A stretch of 64,000 bases of DNA from Nocardioides piscis (GTDB lineage: Bacteria > Actinomycetota > Actinomycetes > Propionibacteriales > Nocardioidaceae). Numbering within the stretch: the first letter of the stretch is position 1; each line of letters starts with the position of its first letter. A model generated the notes under the pieces. It did not search any database, was not told where the DNA came from, and worked only from the letters and a program-made list of their open reading frames with translations. Below, piece after piece: positions 34,823 through 38,601 of the stretch. The stretch covers positions 3,225,001 to 3,289,000 of the forward strand of contig NZ_CP049866.1 of the NCBI RefSeq assembly GCF_011300215.1. Direction: 5' to 3'. Made by a program: the position numbers and the translations under genes.

Positions 34823-34836
34823 TAGAACGTGTTCCA
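34823..34836. promoter_or_regulatory. KstR box between fadE34 and a methyltransferase gene
   Basis: TAGAACGTGTTCCA fits TnnAACnnGTTnnA. Leftward, TAGTTT (34819-34824, minus) overlaps it as the fadE34 -10. Rightward, TAGTGT (34842-34847) lies 8 nt before GTG 34856. Confidence 0.86.
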
Positions 34837-34855
34837 CATACTAGTGTCACGCCGC

Positions 34856-35515
34856 GTGACTACTGAAGAGATGCCCAGCGAGCTGCTCGAGCACGCCCTG
34901 GCAGCCAAGGGGTTCATGCCCGAGGACGAGGGCCTGCTCCTGCACCGCCACGGCCACCGCCAGGCGGCGATGGGTCCGTTGCTGGAGGTCGGCAGCTATT
35001 GCGGCAAGTCGGCCATCTATCTCGGGGCCGCGGCCGCGAGCGCCGGCGGCACCCTCTTCACCGTCGACCACCACCGCGGCTCCGAGGAGAACCAGGCCGG
35101 CTGGGAGCACCACGACGCCAGCCTCGTCGACCCAGAGTTCGCCTTGATGGACACCCTGCCGGTGTTCCGCAGGACCATCGCTCGGGCAGGCCTGGAGGAC
35201 CAGGTCGTCGCCGTCATCGGCAGGTCGACCACCGTGGCCCGCCACTGGCGCACCCCGCTGGCGCTGCTGTTCATCGACGGCGGGCACGCCGAGGAGCACG
35301 CGCAGAACGACTACACCGGCTGGGCGCACTGGCTGATGCCCGGCGGGCTGCTGGTGATCCACGACGTCTTCGCGGACCCGGCTGACGGCGGCCAGGCGCC
35401 CTACCACGTGTTCCAGCGGGCGCTGGCGAGCGGATCCTTCGTCGAGGTCGAGGCGCTGGGCTCGATGCGGGTGCTGGAACGCTCCTCAGGAGAGGCTGGC
35501 GACCCGGTCGGCTGA
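34856..35515 (+). CDS. Class I SAM-dependent methyltransferase (Methyltransf_24 / CmcI-like)
   Basis: A 219-residue Rossmann methyltransferase. The SAM site is [32 protein letters not shown] and [16 protein letters not shown] carry the acidic residues expected of this group, which includes metal-dependent enzymes of the cephalosporin hydroxylase type. GTG 34856 is chosen because the upstream 27 nt are promoter (TAGTGT -10 at 34842-34847) and lie within the KstR region. It shares the KstR box with fadE34 and overlaps the convergent QW-repeat gene by 30 nt. The substrate is unknown. Confidence 0.78.
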
Positions 35516-36579
35516 GCTGCAGCCGCACTCGAGGGCGATCTCCGCGAAGTCGGCGGCCAGCGTGGTGCCGCGCATGATGTCCGCGCCGGGGCTCGCGTGC
35601 GACAGGGCGTCGACAGCCAAGATCACGGCCGCGGCGGTGTAGGTCGTGTGCTCGTGCGGCCAGTTGACGTCGTCGGGAAGACGTAGCCGGTCCAGTACTT
35701 CCCCTGCTCGCCACGCAGGTGCTGCATGTCGGCCAGCAGCCTGATCGCGCGCGTGCGGTCACCGACGGCGTCCAGCGCCATCACCAGCTCGCAGGTCTCG
35801 GCGCCCGTCACCCAGGGGTTGTGCGAGACGCACCTGATGCCCAGCCCGTCCTCGACGAACGTGTCCCACCTGGAGTCGAGCAGCTCTCGGGCGGCTGGGC
35901 CGCGCACCGCCCCACCCAGGACGGGGTAGTACCAGTCCATCGAGAACTCGGACTTGTCGAGGAACAGGTCGCGGTGCTCGCGCAGCGCGTGACCGAGCCG
36001 GCCGCCGGCCAGCTCCCACTCGGGCTGGGGCTCGTCGGTCAGCTCGGCGAGGGCCGCGCCTGCGCGCAGGCTCTGGTAGATGCTCGACGAGCCGGCGACC
36101 AGGGCGTCGGCGTTGACCTTGGCGGGGCGCCCGTCGGCCCACTCCTGCGACCAGGCGATGCCACCGAAGGGCAGCTGCATGCCGACGACCCAGTCGAGCC
36201 CTCGGCGTACGGCCGGCCACATCCGGCGCACGAACTCCTCGTCGCGGCGCACCAGCCAGTGGTGCCAGACACCGACAGCGAGGTAGGCGGACATGTTGGT
36301 CTCGCCCGAGTGGTCCTCGACCTGCCCGCCGACGACCTTCATCGGCCACGAGCCGTCGTCGCGCTGCATCGAGAGGACCCAGTCATAGGCGCGCTCGGCG
36401 GCCTCGACCTCACCACCGACCAGCAGCGCCATCGCCGCCTCGACGTGGTTCCACACGTCGGTGTGCTCCCCCGTGGTCCACGGGATCGCCCCGTCCGGCT
36501 CCTGCATCGCCGCGATCGACGCAGCCGTCTCCTCGACCTGCGCCCAGGTCAGGACGTCCTCGACCGTCTTCGCGGTCAA
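35486..36579 (-). CDS. Alpha/alpha-toroid protein with QW-like repeats (prenyltransferase/terpene cyclase-like), frameshifted as read
   Basis: A 364-residue protein after one correction. QW-like motifs repeat along it: [28 protein letters not shown] and [15 protein letters not shown], the pattern of the terpene cyclase/protein prenyltransferase toroid. No DxDD protonation motif of squalene-hopene cyclases is visible. As read, the frame slips at GGG 35675-35677. Adding one base restores [20 protein letters not shown] and a stop at 35486. The start is TTG 36579, overlapping the methyltransferase stop. It could be an inactive cyclase-fold protein, a prenyltransferase or a six-hairpin glycosidase-like protein; I cannot choose. 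Confidence 0.65.
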
Positions 36580-37304
36580 GACGCCGGGGCCGAATCGGGC
36601 TTGCGGAAGTAGAGCACCATGCTCTTGCCGATCATCGGGTCGAGCACCTTGCCCGCGAGCTGCAGGGCCTTGGGGTTCTTCATGATCTCCCAGACCAGGA
36701 GCTTGTGATAGGCCTTGGCGAGCGGGTGGTCGTCGTTGGTCACACCGACGGCGCACTTGATCCACCAGTACGGCGCGTGCAACCCGTGCGCGTAGTCCTT
36801 GCCCGTGAACTCCACTCCGGCCTTGCTGACCTTGTCGATCAGCTCCTTGTCGGTGTAGATCCGGATGTGCCCGCCCTCGACGTTGTGGTAGTCGTCGGAG
36901 AGCTTCCAGTTGATGACCTCGGGCAGCCAGCGCGGGACGCTCACGGCGAGCGTGCCGCCGGGCCGCAGCACCCGAACCAGCTCGTGGATGGCAGCGATGT
37001 CGGCCGGGATGTGCTCGAGGACCTCGGCGGCCACGATGCGGTCGAACTCGTCGTCGGCGAACGGCAGGGCGAGCGCGTCGCCCTCCTTCACGTCGGCCTC
37101 GGCGCCGTCCGGCACCTCGCCGGCGTCCTTCATCGCGCCGAACCACTCGCGGACCACGGCCAGCTCGTCGGCGTCCTGGTCGAAGGCGATGACGTCCGCC
37201 CCGCGCTTGTACATCTCGAAGGCGTGGCGGCCCGCCCCACAGCCCATGTCGAGCACCCGGTCACCCGGGCGCAGGCCGAGGCGGTCGAAATCAACGGTCA
37301 GCAC
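36576..37304 (-). CDS. Class I SAM-dependent methyltransferase (UbiE/COQ5-like)
   Basis: A 242-residue methyltransferase. Motif I is VLDMGCGAGRHAFEM, followed by the acidic strand VIAFDQDADEL. FDRIVAAEVLEHI and VRVLRPGGTLAVSVP are the later motifs. The C terminus (HGLHAPYWWIKCAVG, KSMVLYFRKP) resembles lipid- or polyketide-modifying members. It overlaps the glycosyltransferase gene by 14 nt and the QW-repeat gene by 4 nt, so the three form one operon. The methyl acceptor is unknown. Confidence 0.82.
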   Translation of the reverse strand: MLTVDFDRLGLRPGDRVLDMGCGAGRHAFEMYKRGADVIAFDQDADELAVVREWFGAMKDAGEVPDGAEADVKEGDALALPFADDEFDRIVAAEVLEHIPADIAAIHELVRVLRPGGTLAVSVPRWLPEVINWKLSDDYHNVEGGHIRIYTDKELIDKVSKAGVEFTGKDYAHGLHAPYWWIKCAVGVTNDDHPLAKAYHKLLVWEIMKNPKALQLAGKVLDPMIGKSMVLYFRKPDSAPAS

Positions 37305-38562
37305 TGGTGTTCTCCTTCAACTCGCGCCGCTCGGCGCGATAGCTGTCGATCGTTCGCTGGTATGCCGATGCGGTGGCAGCGGCCACGGCCCGCCAGCTGA
37401 ACAGGCGTTGGACGCGTTGCCGGCCGGCCCGGCCCATGCGCTCACGGCGCTCGGGGTCGTCGAGCAGCTCCTCGAGCGCTCGGGTCAGCTCGCCGACGTC
37501 GCCGGGTGTGACCAGGAGGGCGCACTCACCGTCGGGACCGACGACCTCGGGGATGGCGCCTGCGCGGGACACCACGAGCGGGGTCTCGCACGCCATCAGC
37601 TCTGCTGTCGGCAGCGAGAAGCCCTCATAGAGCGACGGGACGCAGGCCAGCTCGGCCGAGCCCATGATGTCGATGAGCTCGGCCTGCGAGACCCCGCTGA
37701 CGAAGGTGACGTGCTCGGCGATGCCGAGGTCGTCGATCAGCCGCTCGGTGCGGCCGCCGGCCTCCGGCTTGGTCACCAGCAGCAGCTCGACCTCCCGCTC
37801 GGTGCGCAGCTTGGCGAAGGCCTCGAGCAGGGTGGCGATGCCCTTCATCGGCGCGTCGGCGCTGGCCATGGCCAGGATGCGGCCGGGCACCCGCGGGACG
37901 GTCGGCGGCACGAACGTGTCCTCCACACCGAGCAGGACCGTCTCCATGCGGCCGGGGTCGACGCCGAAGTCGAGGGCGATGTCGCGCGCCGAGGTGTCCG
38001 AGGGGGTCAGGATGGTGCGCGCCTGGCGGGCGACCTTGGCCTGCATGCCCACGAAGCCGTACCAGCGGCGCAACGAGAGCTTCTTGCGCAGCGTGGGCGC
38101 AGCCTCGATGTCGATGCGTCGGTCGAAGGTGATCGGGTGGTGGATGGTGGTCAGCAGCGGCAGGCCCATCTTCTCGATCTCGAGCATGCCGTAGCCGAGG
38201 ACCTGGTTGTCGTGCACCACGTCGAAGTCACCCGAGCGCTGCCGGAGCAGGCGCGCGACCCGGCGACTGAAGGTCTTGGGCTCGGGGAAGCCCGCCGTGC
38301 ACATCGTGAGGAACTCCTCGACGTCGATCAGGTCGCGGAACTCACGCAGCCTGGGGACGCGGAACGGGTCGGGCTCGCGGTAGAGGTCGAGACTGGGGAC
38401 CTTGGTGAGGCGAACACCCTCGTCGAGCTCGGGGTAGGGCTGACCGGAGAACACCTCCACGTCGTGCCCGAGGTTGACCAGCTCCCGGCTCAGGTGCCGG
38501 ATGTAGATCCCTTGGCCGCCGCAATGTGGCTTGCTCCGGTAGGACAGCAATGCAATACGCAC
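37291..38562 (-). CDS. GT4-family glycosyltransferase
   Basis: A 423-residue retaining glycosyltransferase with the GT-B fold. The N terminus KPHCGGQGIYIRHLSREL is the acceptor-side loop. LEAFAKLRTEREVELLLV and the nucleotide-sugar motif PSLYEGFSLPTAELMACETPLV with its E-x7-E pair are in the C-terminal half. GTG 38562 is preceded by GAAAGG. It is first in an operon with a methyltransferase and the QW-repeat protein, behind the KstR-like box 38588-38601, and divergent from kstR. Sugar donor and acceptor are unknown. Confidence 0.85.
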   Translation of the reverse strand: MRIALLSYRSKPHCGGQGIYIRHLSRELVNLGHDVEVFSGQPYPELDEGVRLTKVPSLDLYREPDPFRVPRLREFRDLIDVEEFLTMCTAGFPEPKTFSRRVARLLRQRSGDFDVVHDNQVLGYGMLEIEKMGLPLLTTIHHPITFDRRIDIEAAPTLRKKLSLRRWYGFVGMQAKVARQARTILTPSDTSARDIALDFGVDPGRMETVLLGVEDTFVPPTVPRVPGRILAMASADAPMKGIATLLEAFAKLRTEREVELLLVTKPEAGGRTERLIDDLGIAEHVTFVSGVSQAELIDIMGSAELACVPSLYEGFSLPTAELMACETPLVVSRAGAIPEVVGPDGECALLVTPGDVGELTRALEELLDDPERRERMGRAGRQRVQRLFSWRAVAAATASAYQRTIDSYRAERRELKENTSADR

Positions 38563-38587
38563 GCGCCGCGACCTTTCTCAAATGAAG

Positions 38588-38601
38588 TGGAACGTGTTCC
38601 T
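38588..38601. promoter_or_regulatory. KstR-like box between the glycosyltransferase operon and kstR
   Basis: TGGAACGTGTTCCT has the AACnnGTT core and near-perfect symmetry; only the last base departs from TnnAACnnGTTnnA. A TATTAT -10 for the rightward (kstR) direction overlaps it at 38601-38606. This predicts autoregulation of kstR and KstR control of the glycosyltransferase operon. Confidence 0.75.

Follow-up and report, generated by a model that had tools for sequence, protein, structure and literature searches.

3-O-Methylmannose polysaccharide (MMP) is a cytoplasmic polymer that has been proposed to sequester acyl-CoA, and structures are available for its enzymes ManT (PDB 7QSG) and MmpH (7QSJ) (PMC9883506). 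The role of MMP in the cell is called poorly defined in a passage of PMC2674218 and is only proposed in PMC9883506. So far this role has been discussed in terms of fatty acid metabolism and, more recently, of cold. A published comparison traces the origin of the sterol regulator KstR to the ancestor shared by Mycobacterium and Rhodococcus (PMC3388012). In N. simplex, kstR (KR76_12270) and fadE34 (KR76_12295) have four locus-tag steps between them, and the main text flags fadE34, not kstR, as induced on phytosterol (PMC7807495). A link between KstR and MMP was not found in the literature searched, including that on methylmannose, cholesterol and Mycobacterium. We found no mention of MMP genes in the main texts of PMC1995591 and PMC7807495, or of MSMEG_648x in the main text of the M. 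smegmatis KstR regulon paper.

Here we describe a probable link of this kind in the window, i.e. the whole 64 kb stretch of DNA that was analysed. A preliminary description had reported a four-gene set bounded by two KstR-like boxes, and the window sequence confirms this: fadE34 and kstR enclose the four genes, with a KstR-type box at each end. The features of the locus are as follows.

32696..34792, minus strand: fadE34 (sterol side-chain acyl-CoA dehydrogenase), with acyl-CoA dehydrogenase domains; a known KstR target that borders the set
34823..34836: perfect KstR-type box TAGAACGTGTTCCA, matching TNNAACNNGTTNNA, between the divergent fadE34 and meT1
34856..35515, plus strand: meT1, MMP 1-O-methyltransferase homologue, 219 aa (PDB 6g7d, E 2.1e-81; Pfam PF13578)
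about 35503..36581, minus strand: mmpH, MMP alpha-endomannosidase homologue, (alpha/alpha)6 toroid (PDB 7qsj, E 4.5e-105, residues 6-302)
36576..37304, minus strand: meT3, putative MMP 3-O-methyltransferase, a class I SAM methyltransferase (PF08241, 8.8e-20)
37291..38562, minus strand: manT, GT4 alpha-(1->4)-mannosyltransferase homologue (PDB 7qsg, E 1.9e-160)
38588..38601: KstR-type box TGGAACGTGTTCCT with one mismatch (last base), 26 bp before the manT start
38602..38607, minus strand: putative manT -10 hexamer CATAAT, its promoter role inferred
38610..38623, minus strand: CTACC-N4-GGTAG-like palindrome CTACCAACGGGTGG with one mismatch, upstream of manT
38717..39316, plus strand: kstR, TetR-family KstR orthologue with an inferred start codon (PDB 5ua2, E 1.8e-56; TetR_C_20)

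The start codon of meT1 was placed with the help of an alignment to 6g7d, which we take to be the MeT1 structure, and the name fadE34 follows synteny with kstR in relatives and the label of the preliminary description. The manT frame overlaps that of meT3, which in turn reaches mmpH at about 36576-36580, so the earlier proposal that three of the genes overlap as one operon stands, for manT, meT3 and mmpH. The kstR product scores 266.8 bits against NF033703, under the curated equivalog cut-off of 280 bits. We instead base its orthology on its best PDB matches, synteny with fadE34 and a quick KstR tree, which we rooted on mycobacterial paralogues and which carries a long-branch warning.

The four genes match the MMP cluster of MeT1, MmpH, a putative MeT3 and ManT. 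For MeT1, MmpH and ManT, the three proteins covered by the solved-structure comparison, an MMP enzyme is the best match (E 2e-81 to 2e-160). The identity of meT3 is judged from its domain and its place, which is that of pMeT3 in the mycobacterial cluster (PMC9883506). The ManT catalytic residues His142, Lys240, Glu313 and Glu321, whose roles are known from the characterised enzyme (PMC9883506), are all kept with identical numbering. In an MmpH alignment of 10 members, D38, E258 and E261 are invariant and present in the window sequence; through their motifs we equate these with Asp47, Glu262 and Glu265, of which Asp47 and Glu262 are the putative catalytic acid and base. Asp50 is kept in five of the 10 members and replaced by Asn in the other five (Nocardioides and Streptosporangiaceae types), as in the window. 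The window mmpH frame is broken near 35676, with the first ~318 codons in one frame and the last ~57 in another. The gene is intact in relatives, unlike the window copy, and the break may be a sequencing error or a real loss. We also considered a squalene cyclase or prenyltransferase for the toroid protein, and rejected both as the matches were weak. Elsewhere, a plasmid search gave distant GT4s and one unannotated Nonomuraea record among the best 20 of 124, and no relatives of the set were found in the viral contigs searched.

These matches show that the set is not undescribed, as the preliminary description had supposed. They also bear on its proposal that sterols induce a glycosylation and methylation system decorating a sterol, a hopanoid or a cell-envelope lipid. 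While the domain types alone would fit such a system, three of the four proteins match MMP enzymes best, the gene order is that of mycobacteria and the ManT catalytic residues are kept. On the matches to 7qsj, 7qsg and 6g7d we reject this proposal, and give it next to no probability.

The TnnAACnnGTTnnA palindrome is present in both promoters, perfect on the meT1 side and with one mismatch on the manT side. The first box is about 20 bp upstream of meT1 and about 30 bp upstream of fadE34, as measured to the gene starts, and the second abuts the -10-like hexamer of manT. Such boxes are enriched: 13 matches at <=1 mismatch occur in the window, where 100 shuffles average 2.33, and 33 perfect sites occur genome-wide, compared to seven for the reversed control pattern. 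The CATAAT hexamer is also found in relatives that lack both kstR and the box (G007, G012 and G022). The CTACC-N4-GGTAG-like palindrome occurs before manT in relatives with and without kstR, and its genome-wide count exceeds the reversed control in just four of eight genomes. In the window itself, the manT box is not separable from kstR's own operator.

A comparison of 54 congeneric genomes suggests that KstR switches the MMP genes. A box (<=1 mismatch) precedes manT in 39/39 kstR-bearing and 0/15 kstR-less genomes (Fisher test, 1.2e-13), G031 being left out of the latter (16 to 15) because its manT is cut at a contig end. Eight of the 39 boxes are perfect and 31 have a mismatch, which in G027 falls in the core and makes for a weak box; among shuffled promoters, 2.4% contain a <=1-mismatch box and 0.1% a perfect one. 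On the manT tree the labels for kstR and box are identical by construction, which leaves the number of changes as the informative quantity; kstR presence changes only ~6 times, three of these forced by well-supported branches, so the effective sample is small. Among named Nocardioidaceae-type loci, the box is found in 21/21 with kstR and 5/26 without, kstR being scored within the stretch.

Conservation beside kstR, a check that the preliminary description had named, is evident: the cluster adjoins kstR in 35 of the 39 kstR-bearing congeners and lies exactly between fadE34 and kstR in 30. By contrast, fadE34 and kstR are direct neighbours in 11/11 kstR neighbourhoods fetched from families f7 (mycobacteria-like) and f48, as had been said of mycobacteria.

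This arrangement raises the possibility that the boxes act on fadE34 and kstR alone, while the MMP cluster sits between them outside KstR control. The box on the meT1 side is found in 30/30 congeners whose fadE34 and meT1 are no more than 200 bp apart and in 1/9 other kstR-bearing ones. It is therefore mainly the operator of fadE34, and we rejected it as independent evidence. Likewise, in 35 of the 39 congeners the box before manT could just as well be the operator of kstR. The N. simplex authors warn that a box shared by divergent genes may act on just one of them (PMC7807495), and mycobacteria retain MMP without a KstR box: none was found before manT in 16 Mycobacterium-type (g15) and two g42 genomes, all with kstR (18 genomes fetched of the 24 f7 genomes with kstR and manT). 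Nor was one found before manT in six genomes, from four further families, that carry a KstR-like gene.

As both boxes are common to known KstR targets, it is the independent cases that carry weight. G001, G011 and G015, which form one clade, carry a perfect box 34-35 bp upstream of manT; their kstR and fadE34 are ~95 kb from the MMP genes or on another contig, and the divergent neighbour of manT is a DUF1707 gene. Here the operator is tied to manT itself, which is not so for meT1 in the genus. Perfect boxes before manT also lie away from kstR in 15/20 Streptosporangiaceae-type (f20) genomes and in G422. Moreover, a kstR-like gene and the manT box are retained in four genomes without KshA and without fadE34 in the stretch (G021, G026, G028 and G242), and the window box abuts the putative manT -10. 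Operators that serve only fadE34 and kstR are thus improbable to us, and the manT-meT3-mmpH operon is probably under KstR control. Of the two-box control in the preliminary description, the manT part is supported (39/39 versus 0/15) and the meT1 part largely goes to fadE34.

More distant families host related arrangements. A KstR-like gene lies 2.4-2.8 kb from mmpH in 31/33 Streptomyces-type genomes, and a perfect box precedes manT in 11 of the 13 that were fetched; we take the fetched genes to be counterparts of SCO2319, a regulator for which no function was found in the literature searched. At other box sites in Streptomyces-type genomes, five of 11 precede acyl-CoA dehydrogenase genes and one a MaoC-ADH-SDR operon, these 11 having been chosen for recurrence among 21 non-manT sites. 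The distance from box to manT in f20 is 163-188 bp for 14 of 15 genomes and 84 bp for G330, and in L105 the box stands ~10 bp before a divergent NDP-sugar dehydratase gene. A KstR-like match at E <= 1e-30 was not found in four of these 15 genomes, among at most seven scored candidates per genome. The KstR-like proteins compared (four Streptomyces-type and three Streptosporangiaceae-type) show 60-74% identity in the HTH against 27-38% in the ligand domain.

These distributions are also relevant to the idea that KstR control of MMP is the legacy of an older acyl-CoA-responsive regulator, with MMP serving general fatty acyl-CoA or stress physiology and nothing specific to sterols. The Streptomyces-type KstR-like gene and box, and the f20 box, occur in genomes without KshA (a full-strength KshA match was not found in the four Streptomyces-type genomes searched). 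In addition, manT is kept in 10/10 kstR-less genomes of one set, the second palindrome before manT is independent of kstR, and MMP loss in M. smegmatis shows at 15 C (PMC9883506). That said, 35/35 KshA-bearing congeners keep the manT box, and across the box before meT1 the cluster neighbours an MlaE-type permease in G027 and, in G422, an FAD-binding protein with a distant resemblance to ketosteroid dehydrogenases. We rate the legacy idea a serious contender at a little under even odds.

The explanation that we favour, to which we give a probability of roughly 0.75 on comparative sequence grounds, is that KstR represses the MMP operon, that acyl-CoA or steroid-CoA releases it, and that MMP acts as an acyl-CoA buffer. 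KstR would bind at the start of manT and repress manT-meT3-mmpH, and perhaps meT1 too. Steroid-CoA, or another acyl-CoA in non-sterol relatives, would release the repressor, so that MMP would be made together with beta-oxidation enzymes. In an MMP-type cluster such as this, ManT lengthens the alpha-1,4-mannose chain, pMeT3 presumably 3-O-methylates it, MeT1 caps the reducing end and MmpH cuts mature MMP to yield primers. In the least certain step, MMP would hold bulky acyl-CoA or steroid-CoA thioesters in solution and buffer their flow.

FAS-I is missing from all 13 non-mycobacterial MMP genomes examined. A KstR operator on a key MMP gene in hosts without FAS-I points to acyl-CoA handling in lipid or steroid breakdown. 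This link gives a testable clue to the purpose of MMP, and is relevant to the origin of the sterol regulator. A bolder and, to us, rather unlikely extension is that, across Actinomycetes, the pairing of beta-oxidation genes with MMP synthesis under KstR-family repressors is an old one, that the sterol regulon was built around this pair, and that the long-sought physiological role of MMP is that of an inducible carrier or buffer for bulky acyl-CoA and steroid-CoA rather than chiefly of a FAS-I modulator.

In comparison with known systems, the mycobacterial MMP cluster meT1-mmpH-pmeT3-manT has the same four genes in the same order and orientation as the window set (PMC9883506), with 52-63% identity to the window set across 16 Mycobacterium-type orthologue sets. 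Unlike that cluster, the window set has fadE34, kstR and KstR-type operators at its borders, its host lacks FAS-I, its MmpH has Asn at Asp50 and a broken reading frame, and mycobacterial manT is mostly preceded by another palindrome. The Streptomyces KstR-like regulator of the SCO2319 type (PMC1995591) shares a KstR-like HTH and operator and stands head-to-head with manT, although its ligand domain is only 29-38% identical to that of the window KstR (four compared). With the KstR regulon (PMC1995591; N. simplex, PMC7807495), the window shares the regulator family, the 14-bp palindrome and the fadE34-kstR neighbourhood.

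The four genes between fadE34, a known KstR target that encodes a sterol side-chain acyl-CoA dehydrogenase, and kstR, which encodes a TetR-family sterol regulator, are shown by homology to encode the enzymes of 3-O-methylmannose polysaccharide (MMP). The toroid protein matches the MMP hydrolase MmpH. The glycosyltransferase matches ManT (the PDB label is D-inositol 3-phosphate glycosyltransferase) and keeps H142, K240, E313 and E321 at identical numbers, and the first methyltransferase matches 6g7d, which we take to be MeT1. The preliminary description had set the four genes between two KstR-like boxes, with three of the genes overlapping, and both points are borne out by the coordinates:

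32696-34792, minus strand, fadE34
34823-34836, KstR-type box on the meT1 side, perfect match
34856-35515, plus strand, meT1 (best structure 6g7d, E 2.1e-81)
about 36580 to about 35503 (also entered as 35503-36581), minus strand, mmpH (7qsj, E 4.5e-105)
36576-37304, minus strand, meT3, a second methyltransferase in the same place as pMeT3
37291-38562, minus strand, manT (7qsg, E 1.9e-160)
38588-38601, KstR-type box on the manT side, one mismatch
38610-38623, second palindrome before manT, CTACC-N4-GGTAG
38717-39316, plus strand, kstR

It is manT, meT3 and mmpH that overlap or touch on the minus strand. The set had been thought undescribed. This needs correction, as a four-gene MMP cluster is already described in passages of PMC9883506, which also give the structures of MmpH (7QSJ) and ManT (7QSG), cite an earlier MeT1 paper as reference 24, and present MMP as a cytoplasmic polymer, 11 to 14 3-O-methylmannoses long, with a proposed role in fatty acyl-CoA sequestration.

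The window's mmpH shifts frame near 35676, leaving about 57 C-terminal codons in the other frame, and intact mmpH is present in relatives. The break would be either an assembly error or a recent loss. If real, it probably leaves the strain MMP-negative, because MMP is absent from an mmpH mutant of M. smegmatis (passages of PMC9883506). Replacement of MmpH Asp50 sharply lowers activity (same source); the position is Asn in the window and in 5/10 aligned homologues, so details of the MMP product may differ.

Is the cluster under KstR? KstR-type boxes (the 14-bp palindromic operator, matched by sequence) number 13 with at most one mismatch in the window, versus 2.33 expected, and 33 perfect boxes occur genome-wide versus 7 for the reversed pattern. 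The window's own boxes are ambiguous for MMP control, because both are common to known KstR targets. The meT1-side box is found in all 30 Nocardioides genomes whose fadE34 is no more than 200 bp from meT1, in one of nine other kstR-bearing congeners (G027, where an MlaE-type permease gene is divergent from meT1 across the box) and in 0/15 without kstR. Proximity to fadE34 explains nearly everything on this side, which is not so for the manT side. There, a box with at most one mismatch precedes manT in 39/39 congeners with kstR, 8 of them perfect, and in 0/15 without (54 readable promoters; 55 were examined and G031 dropped). The Fisher P value of 1.2e-13 overstates independence, since kstR presence changes only about six times on the manT tree, with three changes forced by well-supported branches. 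Shuffled promoters carry a box with at most one mismatch in 2.4% of cases and a perfect box in 0.1%. In G027 the manT box is weak, its mismatch being in the core. In the window, the manT-side box directly adjoins a -10-like CATAAT of manT; kstR-less relatives, G007, G012 and G022 among them, have this hexamer too. As for the second palindrome, it precedes manT with at most two mismatches in 36/54 congeners (versus about 11% when shuffled), and with at most one in 11/15 kstR-less congeners, 10/13 Streptomyces-type (f22) and 8/20 Streptosporangiaceae-type (f20) genomes.

It is independent cases, not the shared boxes, that decide whether MMP may be under KstR, and the position of the manT box against the CATAAT hexamer is counted among them. 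In G001, G011 and G015, fadE34 adjoins kstR far from the MMP cluster, an adjacency also present in mycobacteria. All three carry a perfect TAGAACACGTTCTA 34-35 bp upstream of manT, with a DUF1707 gene as manT's divergent neighbour; they count as one event because they form one clade. KshA (PF19298), used alone as the mark of sterol breakdown, occurs in 35/39 kstR-bearing and 0/16 kstR-less congeners. G021, G026, G028 and G242 have kstR but neither KshA nor, in the stretch, fadE34; their kstR is head to head with manT, the box is kept, and three of the four have a kstR on a long branch of the KstR tree. The KstR of G026, G028 and G242 is possibly a dedicated MMP regulator by now. At these three loci (L059, L061 and L204) the long-branch KstR, 55-61% identical, lies beside manT without KshA. 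Seven further congeners (G007, G012, G017, G019, G022, G024 and G030) keep the MMP cluster without kstR, KshA or fadE34 in the stretch, and have an est gene now near meT1.

A KstR-like gene also accompanies the cluster in f22, called Streptomyces from the names of relatives of one member's KstR-like protein. Of 36 genomes with a KstR-like match, 33 gave both positions and three had no printed mmpH place; the KstR-like gene lies 2.4-2.8 kb from mmpH on the same contig in 31/33, and on a different contig in the other two. A perfect box precedes manT in 11/13 fetched genomes, a set in which G220 yielded no KstR-like gene. Among 20 fetched f20 genomes, identity to Nonomuraea gerenzanensis manT is 86-95% in 15 and 66-69% in five, and a perfect box precedes manT in precisely the first 15; 13/17 with a readable meT1 promoter have a perfect box there, and Nonomuraea has both. 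The KstR-like gene (E <= 1e-30) is present in 13/20, and in 11/15 of those with the manT box. The f20 box lies 163-188 bp before manT in 14/15 and may instead serve a divergent NDP-sugar dehydratase. Two f20 genomes have such a gene (PF16363) divergent from manT (L105:4843-5943 and L103:265-1164), its start in L105 being about 10 bp from the box. Both boxes are also present in G422, where kstR lies elsewhere, and L180, a named Streptosporangiaceae assembly, has neither.

Compared with KstR, the KstR-like proteins are 68-74% identical in the HTH and 29-38% in the ligand domain (four Streptomyces-type), or 60-63% and 27-28% (three f20). The far better kept HTH points to the same operator and to a ligand that is probably different. 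A quick tree, which we rooted on the second mycobacterial paralogue and which carries a long-branch warning, groups the KstR-like proteins in a clade adjacent to Nocardioides KstR. KshA was absent or weak in 4/4 f22 genomes searched and absent in 3/4 f20. SCO2319 turned up in a single paper of those searched (PMC1995591), where it is noted as possibly orthologous to KstR but lacking conserved synteny.

Six Streptomyces-type genomes hold 27 sites of the strict pattern TRRAACNNGTTYYA, 1 to 7 in each, versus 0 to 2 each for its reversed control; the manT/kstR-like site is among them in 6/6 and is the sole site in G146. We opened 11 of the 21 other sites, chosen as recurring between genomes. At five of these, an acyl-CoA dehydrogenase gene starts 2-30 bp further on (L266, L267, L270 and L271 by Pfam, L272 by tblastn). 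L262 precedes a MaoC hydratase - zinc dehydrogenase - SDR operon, and L263 and L264 resemble it by gene length and SDR match. L268 precedes a DUF5819 gene, L269 has no clear gene start, and L265 was put in no class. Over L266-L272, which cover acyl-CoA dehydrogenase genes and the DUF5819 gene, the boxes stand 2-47 bp upstream. These boxes are a candidate regulon of the Streptomyces KstR-like protein, and this small, picked sample suggests that beta-oxidation-type enzymes and MMP are controlled together.

Several results, those from mycobacteria among them, count against KstR control of MMP. No manT box was found in 16 fetched Mycobacterium-type and two g42 genomes, all with kstR (18 fetched of the 24 mycobacteria-like f7 genomes having both genes). 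Among named mycobacterial loci, 1/31 has a KstR box, with one mismatch and 210 bp off (L179), and in 30/31 manT is preceded instead by a palindrome CTGGACACATGTCCAG, allowing two mismatches. It sits 26-125 bp before manT in L160-L193; the pattern CTGGACANNTGTCCAG, counted across seven genomes, has 0 to 2 copies in each and stands at manT in six, seemingly a dedicated operator. The main text of the M. smegmatis regulon paper, as far as accessible, does not name MSMEG_648x (PMC1995591). The manT box is likewise absent in G113, G157, G070, G093, G143 and G068, from four further families, with a KstR-like gene present. Mycobacteria-type genomes also hold a second KstR-like paralogue, about 41% identical (L253, L254), with no perfect KstR box within the 10 kb fetched. 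Locus tags of N. simplex (kstR KR76_12270, fadE34 KR76_12295) leave room for the window's layout, which Pimelobacter simplex 3E has by sequence (L153). On phytosterol, N. simplex fadE34 was flagged as induced and kstR was not, and 27/71 predicted KstR operons responded (passages of PMC7807495).

Footprints in the sequence suggest that KstR binds the manT promoter, and binding there would block transcription because the box is in the start region of manT. For KstR of sterol degraders, release by a steroid acid or by the corresponding CoA ester is reported (as cited in passages of PMC7593942); we assume the same release at Nocardioides manT. We propose that sterol use would then raise MMP production, and hypothesize that MMP may buffer steroid-CoA or acyl-CoA. 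FAS-I (PF08354) is present in 7/7 f7 genomes and in none of 13 non-mycobacterial cluster-bearing genomes searched (six Nocardioides, three Streptomyces-type, three Streptosporangiaceae-type and G422), so action on FAS-I cannot be the general role of MMP.

The search of other actinobacteria that had been suggested did recover the set. ManT (E <= 1e-60) is found in 37/37 Nocardioides genomes, the window's own included, and KstR (E <= 1e-25) in 27/37; both are found in 0/21 from other families of the order. In a class sample of 394 genomes, MmpH (E <= 1e-30) occurs in 188 and a KstR-like protein (E <= 1e-30) in 118. With ManT in all congeners and MmpH in 188/394, the cluster is far wider than mycobacteria, and homologues in Streptomyces, Rhodococcus, Nocardia and Corynebacterium are mentioned in part of PMC9883506. 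Outside subscription papers and supplements, our search found no paper linking KstR with methylmannose and none joining KstR, glycosyltransferase and Nocardioides; the one paper joining KstR, acyl-CoA, polysaccharide and Nocardioides appears to be on KstD isozymes. A published comparison puts the origin of KstR in the Mycobacterium-Rhodococcus ancestor and notes related paralogues in organisms further removed (passages of PMC3388012), and an older KstR-MMP link would go beyond that dating. The MMP cluster itself is known; its tie to KstR appears to be new.
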